DNA from: Desulfurobacteriaceae bacterium
GTDB taxonomy: Bacteria > Aquificota > Aquificia > Desulfurobacteriales > Desulfurobacteriaceae
Length of the DNA stretch: 64,000 nt
Reading direction: 5' to 3'
NCBI GenBank assembly: GCA_027068415.1
Contig: JAMOTD010000014.1
Location: forward strand, 1 to 64,000
The position numbers were made by a program, and so were the translations under genes. The notes below the pieces were generated by a model. The model saw only the letters and a program-made list of their open reading frames with translations. It was not told where the DNA came from and ran no database searches. Below are positions 35,069 to 57,240 of the stretch, in pieces. The number at the start of each line of letters is the position of its first letter. Position 1 is the stretch's first letter.

Positions 35069-35091
35069 GGGGGCTCCCCCTACCTAAACAT
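35065..35091. terminator. Hairpin between convergent genes (possible bidirectional terminator)
   Basis: AGGTAGGGGG-gctc-CCCCTACCT-type inverted repeat in the gap between 35068 and 35084. Confidence 0.5.
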
Positions 35092-36568
35092 CAGTTTCCT
35101 TATAGAGTTTAACTTGCTCTTTTATCCTTCTAAAGACTTCTTCTCCGAGGTTCTCCTTTATCACTTTGGCTGAGGATCGGCTTATCTTCTTTATAGCTCC
35201 TCTCTCAATTAGGTATTCAAGGACAGACTTTCCAGTTGAGTCCTTTTTAAATATGTGTTCAGGGTTTATTCCAAAAAAGCCAATTTGACTTAACTTGTAA
35301 CCCCTTTCCTTCATTAAGTTTTCATAGTTTTTAACCAATTCCTTTACTAAAGCGTCCCTTAGCTTTTCTTTTAAGTTGGTATTTACGTCCTCAATTGGCT
35401 TTGAGATTGTTTTGGTTAAAAGCTCTTTGGAAAGTTTAAAGGAAACAGCCCACCTAACAAACTTATCGTTAACGGTTATTGGAAGTGCGTTAATGTCCTT
35501 TAACTCAACCTTAAGTACCCTATTTACTTGGGATACGATCTCCTTTAACCTCCTTGCCCCTAAGTACTCCTTGTTGTTTAGTTCTTCACAGACCCTTGCA
35601 ATCTCAACTAAAGCACTCTCTTTTACATCAACAAGGATACCTTCAATAACCTCGGGTATCTCAAATCTCTGCCTCTTTAATATTTCTAAATAGTCCCTAA
35701 AGCCGAGTTTCCTAACTTTTGCCTTTACATCAAGTCTACCCTTTAGTTCAGGGATTAGCTCATCGGGGGAACTCTGGGAGAAGGAGCCTGACAAGATAAA
35801 GGTAAGGAACGTTGTGTCTATCTTCCCTTCCTCATGGGTTACAACTGTTCCCTCAACCATCGCTAAGATAAAGTTTTGAAGGGGACGGTAAAATGACTCA
35901 CTGTCCCCATCCCTTTCATCGATTAAGATCTTGTCTATCTCATCTATAAATACAATCCCAAAGGGTCTATTGTAGATACTTTTTTGGTTAAATTTAACAA
36001 AATCCCCCTCTATTACATACGAGATAAGCCACTTTAGGTTCTTAACAGTTTCCTCTACCCACTTTTCTTTCCCAAATTTGTTAAATAGCTCTTCAATAAC
36101 CTCGTCTTCGCTTAAGAAGACTGTTGCTGCACAGAACTCAAGGCCTACTAAGAATTCTAAGGGAGAAGGTTTTGCCTTTTTCAATATCTCAATAGCCTTT
36201 TTCTTTACTAAGACATCGCGTGCCATTTGGCTTAGCTTAAGTAGGTTTTCAGGGGTTAAAGCCTTTTTAAAGTCTACTGCAACAATTTCTTGAACGTCCC
36301 TTCCTTTGTAGCCGGTTAAGGTATAGTCCGATATACAGGTCTGGACAAAAGGAACGTCAAGGACTTTACTAATACTCCTTGAGATTTGGGTCTTACCGCT
36401 CCCTGTAGGACCCATTAATAGTATGTTGTGGGGTTTTATATCTTTTTGAAGGGCAAAAGCTTCAAAGTTTTCACATACTGCAGAAGCAATGTCCTCTACT
36501 GCACTCTCCTGGCCCACTATAAACTCGTTTAGCTTTTTTGATATGTATGAACTTGCATAGGTTAACAT
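35084..36568 (-). CDS. HslU-like AAA+ ATPase with divergent C-terminal extension
   Basis: FIVGQESAVEDIASAV; NILLMGPTGSGKTQISRSI; YKGRDVQEIV; GIVFIDEIDKILID; ELIPELKGRLDVK; LGARRLKEIV. Confidence 0.85.
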   Translation of the reverse strand: MLTYASSYISKKLNEFIVGQESAVEDIASAVCENFEAFALQKDIKPHNILLMGPTGSGKTQISRSISKVLDVPFVQTCISDYTLTGYKGRDVQEIVAVDFKKALTPENLLKLSQMARDVLVKKKAIEILKKAKPSPLEFLVGLEFCAATVFLSEDEVIEELFNKFGKEKWVEETVKNLKWLISYVIEGDFVKFNQKSIYNRPFGIVFIDEIDKILIDERDGDSESFYRPLQNFILAMVEGTVVTHEEGKIDTTFLTFILSGSFSQSSPDELIPELKGRLDVKAKVRKLGFRDYLEILKRQRFEIPEVIEGILVDVKESALVEIARVCEELNNKEYLGARRLKEIVSQVNRVLKVELKDINALPITVNDKFVRWAVSFKLSKELLTKTISKPIEDVNTNLKEKLRDALVKELVKNYENLMKERGYKLSQIGFFGINPEHIFKKDSTGKSVLEYLIERGAIKKISRSSAKVIKENLGEEVFRRIKEQVKLYKETDV

Positions 36569-36577
36569 GGCTCCCTC

Positions 36578-37861
36578 CTAAAACTCAATGTCTTTCTCGT
36601 TAAAATCCCCATAGAGATAAAATTCAATCTCTATTTTTCTATTTTTAGTTAGGTACTTTGTTAGTTTCTCTTTTATTACTTCCCTGCCAGCCTTTAGGAC
36701 TATTTCAAAATCTTTGTCCTTTAGAATGTCCACAAGGACGTCTTCGGAGAAGAACTCGTAAGTTATTTTTCTTAGGAGCTGTACGTTTAGTATCCTATCC
36801 CCTGAAAAGTTTCTCAGTTCAGCCATAAGGATTGTTGCAAAGTTCTTTGACTCGTTGAAAGTGAACACGTCAGGGTCAAGGCGGATAATTGCAATATCCC
36901 CCTTTGGTATAAAGATTTCAGAGTGGAAGTTAAGCTGTGTTGGGAGCTCCTCACATATTAAGGCTACATTTGAGTTCCCTAATCTTTTAATAGGAACGAG
37001 TATGTCTCCCTTCCTTAAGACTGGGGATTTAAAGTCATTTTCCTTCTCAATTGAACTTAGGATTAGCTTAATTTCATCTTCACTTTCGACTTTCTGGCTC
37101 TGTTCTAAGTCCTTTTTGAAGATAAAAATAGGCCTAAGCTCTCTCATTCCAACTTTTTTAATTCCCTTTGAGTGTTCAAAAGTTGAGGGGAGCTCTATCA
37201 TTGGAGGTGTTTGTTTTGAAAGGGGAGAGTAAATTACTTCAACGGGAATTTGTTTAAAACTGAAGGTTTTTTTATGTCCGGTTAACTTACTAACCAGTTG
37301 AACTATAAAGTCGTCTGGAGTTAAGTTTTCCTTTTGTGTAAGAATTATTAAAACTTTATTATCGTCAATAGGAAAGGTTTTATGGTTGTAAAAACCCTTT
37401 AGCCAACCAAGATTGTACTTTGCCATGAATTCCGTACAAATATAGATTCCATATGGGAATCCTTTGTTGAGTAGTTTTATAAGACCAAGTAATGGTTCAA
37501 GCTCAAGTAAGTAGGATGTTGTACTATCAACTTCTGGGAGATTCTCAGCCACTATTCCAGGGGTAGCTATTGGAACAACCTTCTCCTTGCCTGGTTTAAT
37601 TTCAAGGTCAAAACCATACTCATTGTTGAGTAAGTGTTTTAGAATACTAAAGTCGATTGAGAGTGTAGATTTAAGGTTCAACATCCCTTTAAAGAGTTCT
37701 GGTAAAATAACTAAGGGAGCTCTATGGTGTTTCTTTGATAGCTCCAAGACTTCTTTCAAAACTTGAATGTCGAAAGTTTCGACTGGCTTTTCCTCTATTA
37801 GGCTAAGAATCCATTTTAAATCTTGTGAAGAAAGAGATACTTTCTCCATTTTAACCTCCAA
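36578..37861 (-). CDS. Uncharacterised 427-aa protein, cotranscribed with the AAA+ gene
   Basis: Uninterrupted ORF 9 nt upstream of the AAA+ gene; no confident family. Confidence 0.65.
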   Translation of the reverse strand: MEVKMEKVSLSSQDLKWILSLIEEKPVETFDIQVLKEVLELSKKHHRAPLVILPELFKGMLNLKSTLSIDFSILKHLLNNEYGFDLEIKPGKEKVVPIATPGIVAENLPEVDSTTSYLLELEPLLGLIKLLNKGFPYGIYICTEFMAKYNLGWLKGFYNHKTFPIDDNKVLIILTQKENLTPDDFIVQLVSKLTGHKKTFSFKQIPVEVIYSPLSKQTPPMIELPSTFEHSKGIKKVGMRELRPIFIFKKDLEQSQKVESEDEIKLILSSIEKENDFKSPVLRKGDILVPIKRLGNSNVALICEELPTQLNFHSEIFIPKGDIAIIRLDPDVFTFNESKNFATILMAELRNFSGDRILNVQLLRKITYEFFSEDVLVDILKDKDFEIVLKAGREVIKEKLTKYLTKNRKIEIEFYLYGDFNEKDIEF

Positions 37862-37944
37862 ACTTGGTTTCTTAATTCAATCTTAATTCCCGTACTAAAA
37901 GAGAGAAACTGTTAAAATTTCAACCCTTTTTAAAAGAATAGTCC

Positions 37945-37967
37945 TTTGCTAAGTTGAACTTAGCAAA
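37945..37967. promoter_or_regulatory. Perfect 10-bp inverted repeat in divergent intergenic region (candidate operator)
   Basis: TTTGCTAAGT-TGA-ACTTAGCAAA between divergent starts at 37861(-) and 38015(+). Confidence 0.6.
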
Positions 37968-38014
37968 AATTGTAAAATAACTCTTTGGAAATTTCCTATC
38001 AGGAGGGTGAGATA

Positions 38015-38860
38015 ATGGTCTATCGTTTTCTCTCCCTGACAGCAGCTCTTTTAATAGTTGGAGGTTGCAAAACCCTTAATGAGGTTACCCCTGTAGTAGT
38101 AAGTTCAATAGAAAAGGGCAAAGTAAGGCCTGAGGAAAAGAGGAAGATTGCCTCTATTGTCGTAAAGGATGTTTTAGAGAACATAGATAAGGTGGAAAGG
38201 AAGGCGGGAGAGAACAGAGCCCCAAAGGCAAAAGAGGTAGTGTCTCAAAAACCCAGGGAGGAAGAAAGGCCTTCAAGAATAAAAGAGAGTAAATTTATGT
38301 CCTTTGATTGTGGTCCAATTGTAGCTCCTTACGTTGTTGTTTCTGCTTTTGGTCAGTGTTTGGTTTTCCTTGAGGGAGAGGTTCCACTTAAAAAAGCTAA
38401 GAGATTTTATCAACTTAAAGACCTTACTCCTGGGGAGCTTACGTATGTAATAAAGTATATGGTTATAAAGCGAAAGGACCCTGAAGCTAATGACAAACTT
38501 CTATACTACTTAGGAAGATATGACAGGTACCTCTTTTTAGGGGTTAAGAGGGATCTCCTTAGTAGCGGCATTGTGCCTATTCTACCTGAAAAGAATGTGC
38601 TTTTGCTTCCTAATGATGCCGATTTTTATCAACCCTATTCAGAGTATAGAAAGCTCTTAGCAAGGATGTTGTATAAGAATTCTTCCGGTAGGATATTACC
38701 TATTTCTGTTAAGGTTGTGAAAAATAAAGAAGAAAAAGCCGAAGCTGATTCAAAGGTAGAGAGTTTCCCTGTTGATAGTAGCGATATTCACTATAATCCA
38801 AAAGAGGAGAAAAGGTGGCCCTATAAAAGAACTGTTAACTTAGAAAAGGTAAAACCATGA
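38015..38860 (+). CDS. Putative lipoprotein
   Basis: MVYRFLSLTAALLIVGGCKT lipobox; RBS aggagggtgag before ATG. Confidence 0.7.
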   Translation: MVYRFLSLTAALLIVGGCKTLNEVTPVVVSSIEKGKVRPEEKRKIASIVVKDVLENIDKVERKAGENRAPKAKEVVSQKPREEERPSRIKESKFMSFDCGPIVAPYVVVSAFGQCLVFLEGEVPLKKAKRFYQLKDLTPGELTYVIKYMVIKRKDPEANDKLLYYLGRYDRYLFLGVKRDLLSSGIVPILPEKNVLLLPNDADFYQPYSEYRKLLARMLYKNSSGRILPISVKVVKNKEEKAEADSKVESFPVDSSDIHYNPKEEKRWPYKRTVNLEKVKP

Positions 38861-40728
38861 GAAAGGCTCTTAGTTACATATTTTCCTTTACTTTCTTTAT
38901 TCTTGTTCTAAAGATCCTTTACTTAATTGCTGAATTTATATATAATTCAACAGTTCTTGATATTCTTTCTTCTCCCTCTGTTGATAAAAATGTCGTGGAG
39001 AACCTTGAAAACTTTGCCCATATTATCTCTGCTTTAGGAACGACTCTTCTTATTATAGGCTTTGTTTACCAGAAATTTCTTTTTAACTTTAGAATGCCTC
39101 TAAGGGTTGCTGGTGGATTTATTGCTTTTACTCTTCTTTTCTCTTCTTTCTATAAGTTCTACGATGAGCTCTTTGCTTACATTTTTGAATCTCTAAAAAA
39201 GAACGAGCAGGTCTACGTAGGGAGTTTTTATGTAAACCTTTTGAGAACTGGGATTATCAACGGTAACTTTGAGTATCCTTCAATCATTCCAGTTAAAGCT
39301 TCAGATACCTTTTCCCTGGAAGATAGAGTTATGCTTGCCAATACTTATCTCGTTCTCCTTTACGATAGTAAGATAGTTGAGAAGTTTCACAGTTCAGAGG
39401 TTGTTGCAAGTCTTGCAACACTCTTTTCTGAAAGTCTTGGTATCGACCTTGATGCAAAGTGGAACTCATATAAAAGAACAATGAAACAGATCGAGGAGTT
39501 TTGGAAACTTTACAAAGAGAAGGTTCAGGAGCTTAATGTCAAATTAAAGAGAGAGCTTTTACGTAAGGAGGATGTTTATAGAGAACTTCTAAAAGTTCTT
39601 CAGACAAAGTACTGGAAAGAGTATCAAGAGAGGAGGGTAGAGTTTTATAGAAGACTTAATAGGGAACTATCTGATGAGAATGTAGATAGGATAGATAAAG
39701 AGCTTAAGAGGTTTTTCAGGTATAAGTTCCTTAAAAAGGCTCAACGGCGTTATAGAGCAGAAATGTACAAGAACTTCCACCACTACATTCCTCCCCGTGA
39801 ATGGTGCCTTTACAACGGTAATAGGAAGCAGTGTCCCTCAAAAGAGAGGATTAGGAAGGTTCTTTTGAGGGAGGCAAAGAGGGAGTTTAAAGAGAAGTTT
39901 TATATCTCCCCAGATATATATAGCTTTTCTGATTTCATAAAAGCTATCGAAAACATTTCCTACTACCGAGAAAAGATTAGGGCTGAACTCTTTAATAAGG
40001 GTCTAATAGTACCACATACTGTTGAGTTAAGAATTTCTTCTCCTGAAGGCTTTTATAGGACTTATGGACCATCGGTCAGGTACACTTTAGAGGCAAAGTT
40101 TGGCTCATTAATGGAAAAGTACCTTAAAAGGAAGGGGCTTCCTCCATTTTCGATCCCTCCCGGTCTTTCAAGAAGTGAATTTTTAAAAAAGGTTAAAGAA
40201 TCGCTCTCTAAGTACTATGGGAACGTACCTTTATTTTTGAGTCAGAAAGGCTTTTACAGGTTTTATGTTAAGAACCTTCTTCCAAACTCTGTCGAGGAAA
40301 TAGAGGAGAATAGGGCTATTGAGGAGTTTGCTGACCTTTCACTAAAGCTGGTAGTCATTCCTCCGATTGCCCTTATGCTCTCTTCTGTTATTGGATTTTT
40401 AAACCTTATTACTCTTCTCCTCATGCCGCTAAATTTCTTAGTCAAAAAACTATTTAAAGGGAAAAGGCTCACTATATGGATCGCTGGTGCTCTTATCATT
40501 TCTATTCTCATTATTTATCCTTTAAAAGCTCAGGAAAGACCTGGGAAAGTATATCAGGTTTTTCTTAAACTTGAGAATAGGGAGCTCTCCCTAAAAGAAA
40601 GGGTTCTTGTTGAGGGAGCAAGGTGGTTGCTTTATGTTGAACCTTACGCTTACAAGATTGGTAGTTTCCTAAGGGAGCATCTGCCTTCTAAATTGAAGAG
40701 GGAGTATAAGCAGGTTTTCAAGCTTTGA
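38857..40728 (+). CDS. Large membrane protein of unknown function
   Basis: 623-aa ORF; hydrophobic segments at both ends, long charged central region; overlaps the lipoprotein stop by 4 nt. Confidence 0.7.
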   Translation: MRKALSYIFSFTFFILVLKILYLIAEFIYNSTVLDILSSPSVDKNVVENLENFAHIISALGTTLLIIGFVYQKFLFNFRMPLRVAGGFIAFTLLFSSFYKFYDELFAYIFESLKKNEQVYVGSFYVNLLRTGIINGNFEYPSIIPVKASDTFSLEDRVMLANTYLVLLYDSKIVEKFHSSEVVASLATLFSESLGIDLDAKWNSYKRTMKQIEEFWKLYKEKVQELNVKLKRELLRKEDVYRELLKVLQTKYWKEYQERRVEFYRRLNRELSDENVDRIDKELKRFFRYKFLKKAQRRYRAEMYKNFHHYIPPREWCLYNGNRKQCPSKERIRKVLLREAKREFKEKFYISPDIYSFSDFIKAIENISYYREKIRAELFNKGLIVPHTVELRISSPEGFYRTYGPSVRYTLEAKFGSLMEKYLKRKGLPPFSIPPGLSRSEFLKKVKESLSKYYGNVPLFLSQKGFYRFYVKNLLPNSVEEIEENRAIEEFADLSLKLVVIPPIALMLSSVIGFLNLITLLLMPLNFLVKKLFKGKRLTIWIAGALIISILIIYPLKAQERPGKVYQVFLKLENRELSLKERVLVEGARWLLYVEPYAYKIGSFLREHLPSKLKREYKQVFKL

Positions 40729-43352: not shown

Positions 43353-43445
43353 TTGGACGCAAAACTCCTTGAGCTGATAGCAGTCTTCTTAGTCGGCTTC
43401 ACCGGTTCAATGGTTTTCCTCTACTTTGTCTTAAAGAAACTCTAA
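43353..43445 (+). CDS. Putative 30-aa single-span membrane protein
   Basis: TTG-started frame M(L)DAKLLELIAVFLVGFTGSMVFLYFVLKKL*; upstream agaggt RBS-like; not in ORF track. Confidence 0.35.
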   Translation: MDAKLLELIAVFLVGFTGSMVFLYFVLKKL

Positions 43446-46400
43446 GCGGAGCTCCTTCTGGAGCTTTACCGTCTCCTCCAGAGAGCGAACGATTTTTCTT
43501 AGAGTTTCTATCTCATCAAGGGAGAGCTCCCTTCCTTTTCTATCCTTCAGCCACTTTCTAAGAACCTGATAGCCCCCAATCCTGTAGCTAAAAACCTCTC
43601 CGCTAACGGGCTCAAAGTAGGAATTCTCGTTTATGTAGAGTCTGCCGTTTTTGAAGTTCACCCTTTCAACCTTAAAGTTGTCTCCAACAAACTTTACTCC
43701 TTTCAGTGAGACCCCTTTTAAGAGGTGGAGCTCCGCAAGCCTTTTACCCTTCTCAGCCAACTCTTTAAGCTCCTCAACCTTTTCAGGAAAGGGAATTCTG
43801 GGAAATTCGTATTTAAGGAGTTCTTTAAACTTTTCTCTGTAATCCGGTGAGTAGAGGAGAGCGTAGGTGTAGTAAAAGAGCTCTTCAGGAGAAACTAAAG
43901 AGGTCTCTTCCCCGTAGAGCTCCTTTAAAACCTTAGAAACTTCGGAAGTGTAGTTTGGAGCTCTGCTTCCGTCGTTAGAATAGAGGTATAGAGGAAAAAG
44001 TACTCCACCACCCCTGCGGAATATGTTGTAATCATTAATGTTATCTGAGATGAAAGTAATATCGTAAGTCTGAGAACCTATTACATGCCACTGTTTACCT
44101 AAAATTAAAGCCAGATTTTCCGTTGAAATCATGTGTTTCATAACGTCGTATCTGTCTCTGAAAACTACCGTAGGATGGTAGAAAATAAACCTTTTGTCAA
44201 AAGGCCTATAAAGAATAGGCTTAATGAAGCTTTTAAGGTCTTTCCCTTTAAGCTCTCTTCTTAGAGTTTCCCTTGCCTCTGAAAGTTTCCACGCGTAGTT
44301 GTCGTTAACTTTAAAGAGCTCCCTTATCTCTTTGTCTGGAACTTGAAGGTCAAGGAAGAGCCTTATCTTCTCCTCAACCTCTTCGGGAGTAAAACCTACA
44401 ACCAGTCCGTCTCTGGCCGTGACTATTCCCGAAACAAACTCCTTGAAAATTCTGCTTACCGGAATGAAGCTCTCCCACCCCTTCCTGCTTTCGGCAGGCA
44501 CGAAGAAGTAGTAGGGAGGCTTAGGCTTAACCCTTCTCCACTTAAGGGTGCTAAGGGAGTTTTCCCTTAGGAAGTCCAACTTCTCCTCTCTCTTTAAAAG
44601 GCCCTCGTCTTCTAAAGTTGAGTAGTAGAAGAGCTCGGCAAACTCTCCCCTTTTACTCCCGTCCTTAACGAATATGCCGACGGCAACTCCCTGCATGATG
44701 TCAAAAACGTTCTCGTCTGGCTCTTTCTTCCTCTTATTCCCGTGAAGGTTAAGGATGTAAATCTTGTCAAAGCTCCTTAAGAGGGACTCCCTCATTCCGG
44801 CAAAGGTAGGGTTGTCAAGGTAGGAGTGGTTGGTTATGTAGCCTACGATTCCCTTTCCTCCTGAGCACACTTTCCACTGGGCGAACCTTATAAACTTAAC
44901 ATAGTCGTCCTGAAGCCAGACCTTTACCTTTTTAGAGCCTGAAGTTTCTCTTATAAAGGTTTGCAGGTCTTTACCGTTGACCCTGTAATAGCTCTGGCAA
45001 ACCTCTTCCCCGTCCTCTCTCTTTACTGCTATGTCCTTCCTGAGGAACTCCCTTATTGACTTTAAGTTGTTGGCCGATATACCGCTGTAGGGAGGATTTC
45101 CCACAATTACCATTATCTCCTTTTCTCTCTTCACCTCGTCGGCCCTTTTCGTCTCCTCAGCCCAGGCGTTTGAGAAGAGGTATCCGGGATGCTCGTGGTG
45201 AAACTCAAGGGTATTGGTTAGGTAAAGCTGAAACCTCTTATCCTCAATTCCAAGCTCCTTTAAGAACTGGGAAATCCTTAAATGGCCTATAACGTAGGGA
45301 GCAGGTAGAAGCTCAAAGGCATAGTAGTTTGAAAGGACAATTTCGTCAAAGAACTTCCTCAGTACTCCGCTACCTTCTTCAGAGAGTTCCTCTTTTAACT
45401 TTTCAAAGGCGTCAAGAACGAAAGTTAAAGTTCCTGCGGCTGGGTCTAAAAAGGTTAACTCCCTGTCTTTAAAGCCTTCCTTACCAAAGCTCTCCCTTAA
45501 AACCTCCTCAACTGAGGCGTTAATAAAGGAGACTACCTCTTTAGGAGTGTAGTAAACACCTCTTACCTCTCTAAGCTCAGGATTGTAGGCCTTGAGAAAG
45601 GGCTCGTAAAAGTGGGTGGTAAGCTCGTCGGGAGAAAGTTTTACTTTCCTCTCGTCAAAGAGGTTCAGGACCTGTTCTATTTCTTCAAGGGCCCACTCAA
45701 GCTCTCCTCCCCTTACCTTTAACACCTCAATAAAGATTTCCCTTATTACTGCGAGGCTTCTTGGAAAGTCGTAGATAATCTCCTCTTTCCGAACCTCTCC
45801 CTTCCTGAGCTTTAGAATTAAAAGTCCGTAGGCGAGGCTCTGGGCTATGGTATCTGCAAACTCCTCTTCAGAAAGGCTCTCAATTATGAATTCTTTAATG
45901 GAGTTATAAAGCGCTTTTATTACGCTGTTTTCCTTAACTTCCCTTAAGAGCTCCTCCTTTAAAATCCTTACCCTCCACGAAAGCCTTTCTGCAAGTTCAG
46001 AAAGGGTGGTTATTGGCTTTTCAGAATAGCTGAGGAACTCTTTCAGAAATTCAAAAAGTTCTTTCTCCTTGGCAAGGGGCTTGAGTTTTCCTCTTTCAAA
46101 GTCTTTAAAGTTAAGGAGTTTCAACTCTTCTAATAGAATTCCTCCTCCGTAAAGCTTGAAATCTAAGAAGTTAGTTAAAAGGAAGTTTTTAAACTGGCCT
46201 TTATACCTTTTAACCTGCTCGCTCCTTTCCACTTCAGGTAGGCTAACTCCCGGCCTTTTACACTCTATGTAGCCAACTATGTGGCCGTTAGAAGTAATAA
46301 CCTTAAGGTCTGGAAAACCTCCAGCCGTTCTTTTGGGAAGGATAATTACTTTAAAGCCTTTAAAGTTTTCCTCAATCAGGCGGGCAAGGACTCTGTAATA

Positions 46401-46469
46401 GCTTCCCTCAGTTGCAGAACCGGAAGAGTAAAGGGAGTGGAGTTCTTTAAGGTATTCCTTTAACTTCAA
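43431..46469 (-). CDS. Single-chain restriction-modification enzyme (N6-adenine methyltransferase + nuclease; type ISP/IIG-like)
   Basis: N-term GFPDLKVI...GYIECKRPG (PD-ExK); TFLDPAAGTLTFVLDAF (motif I); IVGNPPYSG (motif IV); RPFDKRFIFYHP. Confidence 0.85.
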   Translation of the reverse strand: MKLKEYLKELHSLYSSGSATEGSYYRVLARLIEENFKGFKVIILPKRTAGGFPDLKVITSNGHIVGYIECKRPGVSLPEVERSEQVKRYKGQFKNFLLTNFLDFKLYGGGILLEELKLLNFKDFERGKLKPLAKEKELFEFLKEFLSYSEKPITTLSELAERLSWRVRILKEELLREVKENSVIKALYNSIKEFIIESLSEEEFADTIAQSLAYGLLILKLRKGEVRKEEIIYDFPRSLAVIREIFIEVLKVRGGELEWALEEIEQVLNLFDERKVKLSPDELTTHFYEPFLKAYNPELREVRGVYYTPKEVVSFINASVEEVLRESFGKEGFKDRELTFLDPAAGTLTFVLDAFEKLKEELSEEGSGVLRKFFDEIVLSNYYAFELLPAPYVIGHLRISQFLKELGIEDKRFQLYLTNTLEFHHEHPGYLFSNAWAEETKRADEVKREKEIMVIVGNPPYSGISANNLKSIREFLRKDIAVKREDGEEVCQSYYRVNGKDLQTFIRETSGSKKVKVWLQDDYVKFIRFAQWKVCSGGKGIVGYITNHSYLDNPTFAGMRESLLRSFDKIYILNLHGNKRKKEPDENVFDIMQGVAVGIFVKDGSKRGEFAELFYYSTLEDEGLLKREEKLDFLRENSLSTLKWRRVKPKPPYYFFVPAESRKGWESFIPVSRIFKEFVSGIVTARDGLVVGFTPEEVEEKIRLFLDLQVPDKEIRELFKVNDNYAWKLSEARETLRRELKGKDLKSFIKPILYRPFDKRFIFYHPTVVFRDRYDVMKHMISTENLALILGKQWHVIGSQTYDITFISDNINDYNIFRRGGGVLFPLYLYSNDGSRAPNYTSEVSKVLKELYGEETSLVSPEELFYYTYALLYSPDYREKFKELLKYEFPRIPFPEKVEELKELAEKGKRLAELHLLKGVSLKGVKFVGDNFKVERVNFKNGRLYINENSYFEPVSGEVFSYRIGGYQVLRKWLKDRKGRELSLDEIETLRKIVRSLEETVKLQKELRLEFL

Positions 46470-55269: not shown

Positions 55270-55587
55270 ATGAGAATAGAGGGAACTCTAAAAAAGATAA
55301 TATTCAACGTCAGCAGTAAAGACAAAGAGCTTCTCCTGGCAAATGTCCATATTAGGGATTCTGAGGATTTTACTTTAAAGATTAGCGGCAACAACAGCAA
55401 CAATAGTAGTATTAAGTTAAATCTGAACAATGCTCATTTAGAAAGCATAACTATAGGAGGTGAGATAGCTAAGGAAATTTTTAAAAAGGCTGATTTAGGG
55501 GATAAAATCTGTTTGAATCTGCAATTAGGGCAAGGTATTAAGATTAACGCCATACTTAAATCTATAGAAATAGAATCTGAGGACTAA
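55270..55587 (+). CDS. Uncharacterised 105-aa protein, gene 1 of the SIR2 cassette
   Basis: ORF with RBS aaagggagggga before ATG; beta-rich; no recognised family. Confidence 0.65.
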   Translation: MRIEGTLKKIIFNVSSKDKELLLANVHIRDSEDFTLKISGNNSNNSSIKLNLNNAHLESITIGGEIAKEIFKKADLGDKICLNLQLGQGIKINAILKSIEIESED

Positions 55588-55608
55588 ATTCTCTAAGGCG
55601 TTGAAATT

Positions 55609-57240
55609 ATGAAAACACTCGTTTTCTTTGGAGCTGGTGCAACTAAAAGATTAAATATGCCAATTTCTATAGATATAGAAAAATTCTTTAAGGAATTATC
55701 ACAAAACAGCTCAATAAAGGAGCGACTTGAAAAGTTTTTGTCTGATACGAGACTATTTAGTAAAGAAGTCGAAGAACAGTTTATTGCAGACATAGAACAA
55801 ACACTAAGCCTATTATACGATGGTAATGGTGCAACCAACCAGAAAGAAGCTAAATATATAAAAGAAAAAACTTTTAAAGGATACATAAAAACTTTAGCTC
55901 AGAAGTCTGAACTTAAAGCTCTTTATGAGCACTTTTTTGGCACTTATGTTTTTCCCTACTATGATTGGCTTGCTCTTAAAAGCCTAATTCAGGACATATT
56001 AGAAATAGGAGAAAGAGACAACATCTCTTTACAGGATATACTTACCATAATTTCTAAGGCCTTATTTTCTAATATCTCTATACCGACAAAAGAACTTTTT
56101 CCTAAAGAGGAAAAGTTTACTTTTCCTAATAGAATTTACCTTAATTATCCTCAACGGCTTCAGGGGGCTGTAAGAGTTTATAATTTGTTAGTTTTTAAGC
56201 TATTCAAATATGCTTTGGAAGAGCTCAACGAAGAAAAACTTTCAAAATACAGGAAATTTGTAAATGCAGTAGTAGAAGAATGCACTTCGGATATCTCTAA
56301 GGGCAAATCCGATGAGGAAATACTCGTAAACACTAACTTAGCAACGCTTAACTGGGAGCCTGTAATCCCTTTTCTTTTTATACGCAGAGTTAGGGATAAA
56401 AACCAAGAACTCAAATACAAAGGTTTATTGCTTTACTTGAGTTATAGTGCTCCCTTTAATGTTTTTAACATTAAAAGACGAAAGGAAAAAACTTATATAG
56501 TTGACGAAGACGGCGCTTTCTTCGTTAATGAACTAACAAAACAAAAGAAGTTGTGTAAAGTAAATGTTAAACTTATTAAGTTCTTTGTACCTCATGGTCT
56601 ATTTAATATGAGGGTGTGTCCAAGATGTCAGAACATCTTCCTAATTTTCCCTGATGAAGTAGGTAAGATAGAACCTAAAAGGCTAAGAGAGCTTTTCTAT
56701 TTCGATATTATTCCTACAAAAGAAGATTTAGAATATTTGAGAAAAGTTTTTAACAAAGAAGAAATTCTTCCAAGTGAAATAGTATGTCCACACTGTGGAA
56801 ACCCTACATTTTTTACTGATACCTTTTTACAGATTCAAACAGTCTTTAAACCTCAAGAGCCTCCGCTTATACTTAAAAGTTATTACGATTACGCTGTAAG
56901 CGCAGCTGAAGCAGACCATTTAGTATTTATTGGATATTCTTTTCCTAAAGATGACATCCCACATTTGATAACTCTTCTATCCTTAGGTTTCAATCCATCA
57001 AAACACAAAAGAGATAGAAAAATGACTTTAATCCTCTACGATACAAGCTTAACTTTGAGAGAAAAAATTTGGTTTAAGTACGACGAAGCAATTAAGAAGA
57101 CAAATTCTTACAATCAAGAGACTTTAAGGAACGCTTCTAAGCTAATAAAGAAGAAAAACATAAGGGTTACCTTTTTCGGATTTCCAGATATCTTAGACCG
57201 GGTTTCTCCTAAAGAAATATTGAAATGGAGAGGAGCTTAG
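55609..57240 (+). CDS. SIR2-like domain protein with two CxxC zinc-ribbon pairs
   Basis: MKTLVFFGAGATKRLNMPIS; CPRCQNIFL...CPHCGNPTF; AEADHLVFIGYSFPKDD. Confidence 0.78.
   Translation: MKTLVFFGAGATKRLNMPISIDIEKFFKELSQNSSIKERLEKFLSDTRLFSKEVEEQFIADIEQTLSLLYDGNGATNQKEAKYIKEKTFKGYIKTLAQKSELKALYEHFFGTYVFPYYDWLALKSLIQDILEIGERDNISLQDILTIISKALFSNISIPTKELFPKEEKFTFPNRIYLNYPQRLQGAVRVYNLLVFKLFKYALEELNEEKLSKYRKFVNAVVEECTSDISKGKSDEEILVNTNLATLNWEPVIPFLFIRRVRDKNQELKYKGLLLYLSYSAPFNVFNIKRRKEKTYIVDEDGAFFVNELTKQKKLCKVNVKLIKFFVPHGLFNMRVCPRCQNIFLIFPDEVGKIEPKRLRELFYFDIIPTKEDLEYLRKVFNKEEILPSEIVCPHCGNPTFFTDTFLQIQTVFKPQEPPLILKSYYDYAVSAAEADHLVFIGYSFPKDDIPHLITLLSLGFNPSKHKRDRKMTLILYDTSLTLREKIWFKYDEAIKKTNSYNQETLRNASKLIKKKNIRVTFFGFPDILDRVSPKEILKWRGA

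Follow-up and report, generated by a model that had tools for sequence, protein, structure and literature searches.

On the reverse strand of the window, which is the whole stretch of 64,000 nucleotides analysed here from a Desulfurobacteriaceae genome of 1.6 Mb, a gene for an HslU-type AAA+ ATPase (35084..36568, 494 aa, ATG start; assigned from the open reading frame list, profiles and fold) lies just downstream of a gene for a 427-residue protein. We propose, with a probability of roughly 40%, that the two make up a lineage-restricted, horizontally moving module in which an HslU-derived ATPase would work with a co-transcribed, DNA-recognition-like partner by the mechanism set out below.

The ATPase and its relation to canonical HslU

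The Walker A (GPTGSGKT), pore loop (GYKG) and Walker B (FIDEIDK) motifs of the ATPase all align with canonical HslU, as do the sensor-1 strand, the arginine-finger segment (ELKGRLDVK) and sensor 2 (GARRL). The AAA+ motor motifs with their GYxG pore loop and the I-domain insertion are all present, the latter in shortened form, and in the alignment the catalytic motifs are retained in every clade member compared. HslU (ClpY) of the HslUV protease is the closest known protein by sequence, curated profile and fold, and shares the motor motifs, the pore loop and the position of the I-domain. The top curated profile is NCBIfam HslU (TIGR00390, E 4.5e-49), although the score of 167.6 bits is below the family cut-off of 362.45, and the closest solved structures are HslU both by sequence and by predicted fold. 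A preliminary description had recognised HslU from the motifs, and profile, sequence neighbours and fold neighbours all agree with it.

In the AlphaFold model (mean pLDDT 72) the AAA+ large domain comprises residues of about 8-98 and 200-290, the shortened I-domain lies at about 92-200, the small domain extends to about residue 378, and an extra, mostly helical C-terminal domain occupies about 399-489. From pore loop to Walker B the I-domain measures 115 residues compared with 158-173 in canonical HslU, and 115-137 across the clade. Conversely, 154 residues follow sensor 2 compared with 49 in canonical HslU (154-195 across the clade); the tail extension reported previously is therefore real, with an actual count of 154 in place of "about 140". 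This C-terminal surplus of about 105 residues finishes in KLYKETDV, and alignment of the C-termini found no HslV-docking tail of the EDLxxxIL type at this end, as had been noted. The window ATPase also differs from HslU in its neighbours, having no hslV next to it and a different partner. It presumably forms a hexamer.

A canonical hslV-hslU pair, with HslU following HslV directly, is present on another contig of the same genome (locus L053), and its HslV matches Pfam Proteasome (E 1.8e-28). Because of this pair, the ATPase that had been called an orphan is an extra HslU copy. Eight of the 22 genomes in the family carry such a copy, and all eight retain an ordinary HslU. A profile scan of 136 genomes of the phylum found no clade member beyond these eight; full-length members scored 640-903 bits with the clade profile, and canonical HslU in the fetched loci at most 199 bits. 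In a scan of genome contigs reaching beyond the phylum, the HslU-like matches listed were about 31% identical or less.

Phylogenetic trees place the extra copies in one clade (support 100/100), separate from canonical HslU and on a very long stem branch. With all columns the clade attaches outside canonical HslU at 95/89, whereas core columns alone leave its placement ambiguous; a sister grouping with the HslU of the same genome is mildly rejected (AU p 0.025). The trees do not place the clade inside canonical HslU, and hslV adjoins the ATPase neither in the window, as the preliminary description had stated, nor at any of the other clade loci (0/8). The C-terminal ends of six of the eight members are acidic-hydrophobic and comprise four distinct tails, namely EDMLFEI (L046), ELEELEF (L047-L049), DDIDF (L050) and DDRLMLL (L052). 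These loosely resemble the HslV-docking tail, unlike the end of the window protein.

The best single profile match of the ATPase is phrog_4339 (183 bits), which represents giant-phage HslU-like proteins of the Erwinia phage RAY gp116 type. These are likewise divergent HslU-type ATPases, but those checked have I-domain insertions of 284-417 residues and no C-terminal extension, unlike the window ATPase, and the trees give no support to a common clade. Furthermore, a viral origin of the module was considered and rejected, as searches of phage and viral collections found no relative of the partner or of a neighbouring 623-residue protein (described below), and viral contigs contained no member of the clade.

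The partner protein

The partner gene (36578..37861, reverse strand, 427 aa) ends 9 bp upstream of the ATPase; its start is listed as TTG, with an ATG five codons further in. The same family stands immediately upstream of the ATPase in six of the eight genomes, with gaps of 9-30 bp, and was not found in the remaining two, Thermovibrio ammonificans and G006. Its frame is split in G021. Among close members dN/dS is 0.15-0.31 for the partner and 0.15-0.20 for the ATPase, and the operon is under purifying selection.

The partner had been described as unknown, and indeed we found no sequence relatives in Pfam, NCBIfam, PHROGs, PADLOC or PDB. Methylase_S and related profiles gave no match, and S-subunit domains taken from related genomes showed no similarity to it in either HMM or HH comparison. 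A weak match in one related genome (G064) sits in a frame that we read as PriA-like and was taken as chance.

The AlphaFold model of the partner has a mean pLDDT of 48, which divides into a C-terminal half that is for the most part usable, with many blocks at 70-86, and an unreliable N-terminal half at about 20-35. When this model was compared with PDB using Foldseek, the best 40 matches were all of restriction-modification type (E 3.3e-4 to 1.8), and the first unrelated fold appeared at E 2.0. The matches include Esub1, which we take to be a target-recognition-type protein, BsaXI, CamA, PacII, the S subunit 1yf2, BpuSI, EcoKI and PglX; a search of a viral structure library returned nothing significant. 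The C-terminal half (about residues 230-405) is thus predicted to have a restriction-type target recognition fold, resembling that of target recognition domains in restriction-modification systems, Type I S subunits among them. The partner differs from those proteins in being a single copy, and it has no detectable sequence similarity to them. The pI of the predicted DNA-binding half is 9.3-9.9 in four of five partners and 5.5 in the window partner.

A degenerate N6-methyltransferase in the N-terminal half, an idea formed by eye, received no profile support and was set aside. No nuclease domain was found in the ATPase-partner module, and no methyltransferase or nuclease partner was recognised there.

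Neighbourhood and mobility of the loci

Divergent from the ATPase-partner pair lie two AT-rich genes on the forward strand, one for a 291-residue protein whose N-terminus is lipobox-like (37985-38860) and one for a membrane-type protein of 623 residues that has hydrophobic segments at each terminus (38857-40728). Conservation of the neighbourhood 35084-40728, raised in the preliminary description, holds in part: the partner gene is kept with the ATPase, while the 291- and 623-aa genes are missing from related loci, so that a conserved four-gene cassette was rejected. The 623-aa protein found a single weak match in 100 other related genomes. The divergent pair (37985-40728) is probably separate cargo in the same AT-rich block, which at 35.1-40.7 kb has a GC content of 0.34-0.42 compared with about 0.50 around it. 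A second AT-rich block lies at 55270-57240 of the window (GC 0.33-0.35) and contains a 543-aa open reading frame without a Pfam match.

The ATPase loci are mobile. In genus g6 the ATPase-partner pair adjoins serA in four genomes and is missing there in two others. Between G013 and G021 the ATPases are 92% identical and some host genes a few kb away only 54-64%, a disparity which suggests lateral transfer. Integration at a tRNA-Asn was considered for the window block and rejected, there being no repeat of the tRNA end at the other edge; Rfam detected no RNA besides the two tRNAs. Neither the clade nor the partner was found in plasmid and viral collections, and the genes next to the pair in the window include no recognised initiator or integrase. 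The g6 loci by serA (L046-L049) also carry, after the ATPase, a gene for a 107-109-residue protein without a Pfam match, with about 43% identity between G018 and the others.

The eight loci represent five independent contexts, and defence genes, counted at these contexts alone, occur within 10 kb in three of them. The window has a type IIG restriction enzyme-methyltransferase (43431..46469, reverse strand; PADLOC REase_MTase_IIG, E 1e-216) about 7 kb away, which belongs to the surroundings and is outside the ATPase-partner module. The serA context has AbiE together with R.PabI-type and PLD-type restriction genes nearby, and G006 combines a PIWI protein with a type III restriction enzyme and a UvrD-type helicase. 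At the T. ammonificans locus an adjacent, divergently oriented gene encodes a RepA-like initiator, and G004 has neither a defence gene nor a RepA-like initiator. For the ATPase, PADLOC matches were confined to weak P-loop hits; the partner had no match, and no known defence model fits the pair. The PIWI/Argonaute-type protein of G006 (L051, 11428-13491; Pfam Piwi E 4e-16, PADLOC PprPIWI) is encoded upstream of the ATPase, where the partner usually stands.

A model for the two-gene module and its alternatives

The conservation of the partner supports a dedicated ATPase-partner complex, and to this extent the earlier suggestion of an HslU-type unfoldase repurposed for a non-proteasomal complex is upheld; the acidic-hydrophobic tails of six clade members leave room for HslV docking. 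In our model the HslU-derived ring would have shed the HslV-docking tail and acquired its C-terminal domain. The partner would bind DNA at particular sequences or modification states and recruit the ring via the C-terminal domain or I-domain of the latter. Using the conserved pore loop and ATP hydrolysis, the ring could then unfold or strip a protein-DNA complex, with the outcome that invading DNA is blocked or a restriction activity is regulated. We infer complex formation, DNA binding by the partner, action of the ring on protein-DNA complexes and a role in defence or its control, which is the most likely role of the module. Weighing against this model, sequence profiles do not bear out the predicted fold and half of the partner model is of low reliability; two of the eight members are without the partner, no nuclease domain was found, the window partner does not share the basic pI of the other four, and known defence models do not match. 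The stronger claim of an undescribed defence system, in which a restriction-type DNA-recognition protein would direct a peptidase-free unfoldase descended from HslU at the protein-DNA complexes of invaders, we put forward tentatively and consider somewhat doubtful.

McrBC is a two-gene system in which an AAA+ ring is coupled to a DNA-recognition module, and the proposed module would follow the same logic. The comparison concerns the manner of working only: here the motor is of HslU and not McrB type, the recognition module sits in the partner, and no nuclease is recognised. Links of the kind we propose do exist elsewhere: the restriction subunit HsdR is a target of ClpXP (PMC4231737), and the phage nucleus, filled with DNA, is where an HslU-like protein of a phage localises (PMC10299810).

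The ClpXP precedent (PMC4231737) also fits an ATPase whose unfolding targets are its partner or the restriction or modification proteins bound to DNA, so that the host chromosome is shielded; the partner would then be a substrate or adaptor instead of a sensor. Restriction genes near three of the five contexts and the target-recognition-like fold predicted for the partner point the same way, but the neighbouring restriction systems differ in type and are not kept with the pair across the loci, and two contexts have no recognised restriction system; we regard this as unlikely. The T. ammonificans locus bears on another possibility, namely that the ATPase maintains a mobile element by remodelling a DNA-bound initiator or partition protein, much as ClpA and ClpX remodel RepA, TrfA and MuA. 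The adjacent RepA-like gene and the mobility of the loci favour such a role, which we nevertheless consider rather improbable in view of the window pair having no recognised initiator or integrase beside it, the block having no flanking repeat of the tRNA-Asn end, and the plasmid and viral collections having neither clade member nor partner.

The retained canonical HslU in every clade genome, the HslV of the window genome and the acidic-hydrophobic tails could also be accommodated if the extra copy were an HslU of alternative specificity, docking by its C-terminal end on the host HslV and supplying it with special substrates, for which the partner would act as adaptor. Eukaryotes with two HslUs for one HslV offer a parallel (PMC4106860). 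However, the window protein ends in KLYKETDV, the tails vary among members, hslV is never adjacent, and a long extra domain separates the motor from the C-terminal end. Docking to HslV in trans is unlikely, and we give this explanation little weight overall. Least credible, to the point of being very improbable, is the idea that the ATPase is an HslU paralogue in decay, with no selected function: the very long stem branch and the split partner frame in G021 speak for it, yet it is disfavoured by the selection test and the retained catalytic motifs, and the operon order is conserved as well.

HslU is familiar as the motor of a single protease. A peptidase-free clade with a domain and a partner of its own would show how such a ring can be redirected, here apparently to DNA recognition, and the ATPase and partner of these hot-vent bacteria make a small two-protein system, probably heat-stable, that lends itself to study. 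If the module does serve in defence, HslU would join the motors used in immunity.
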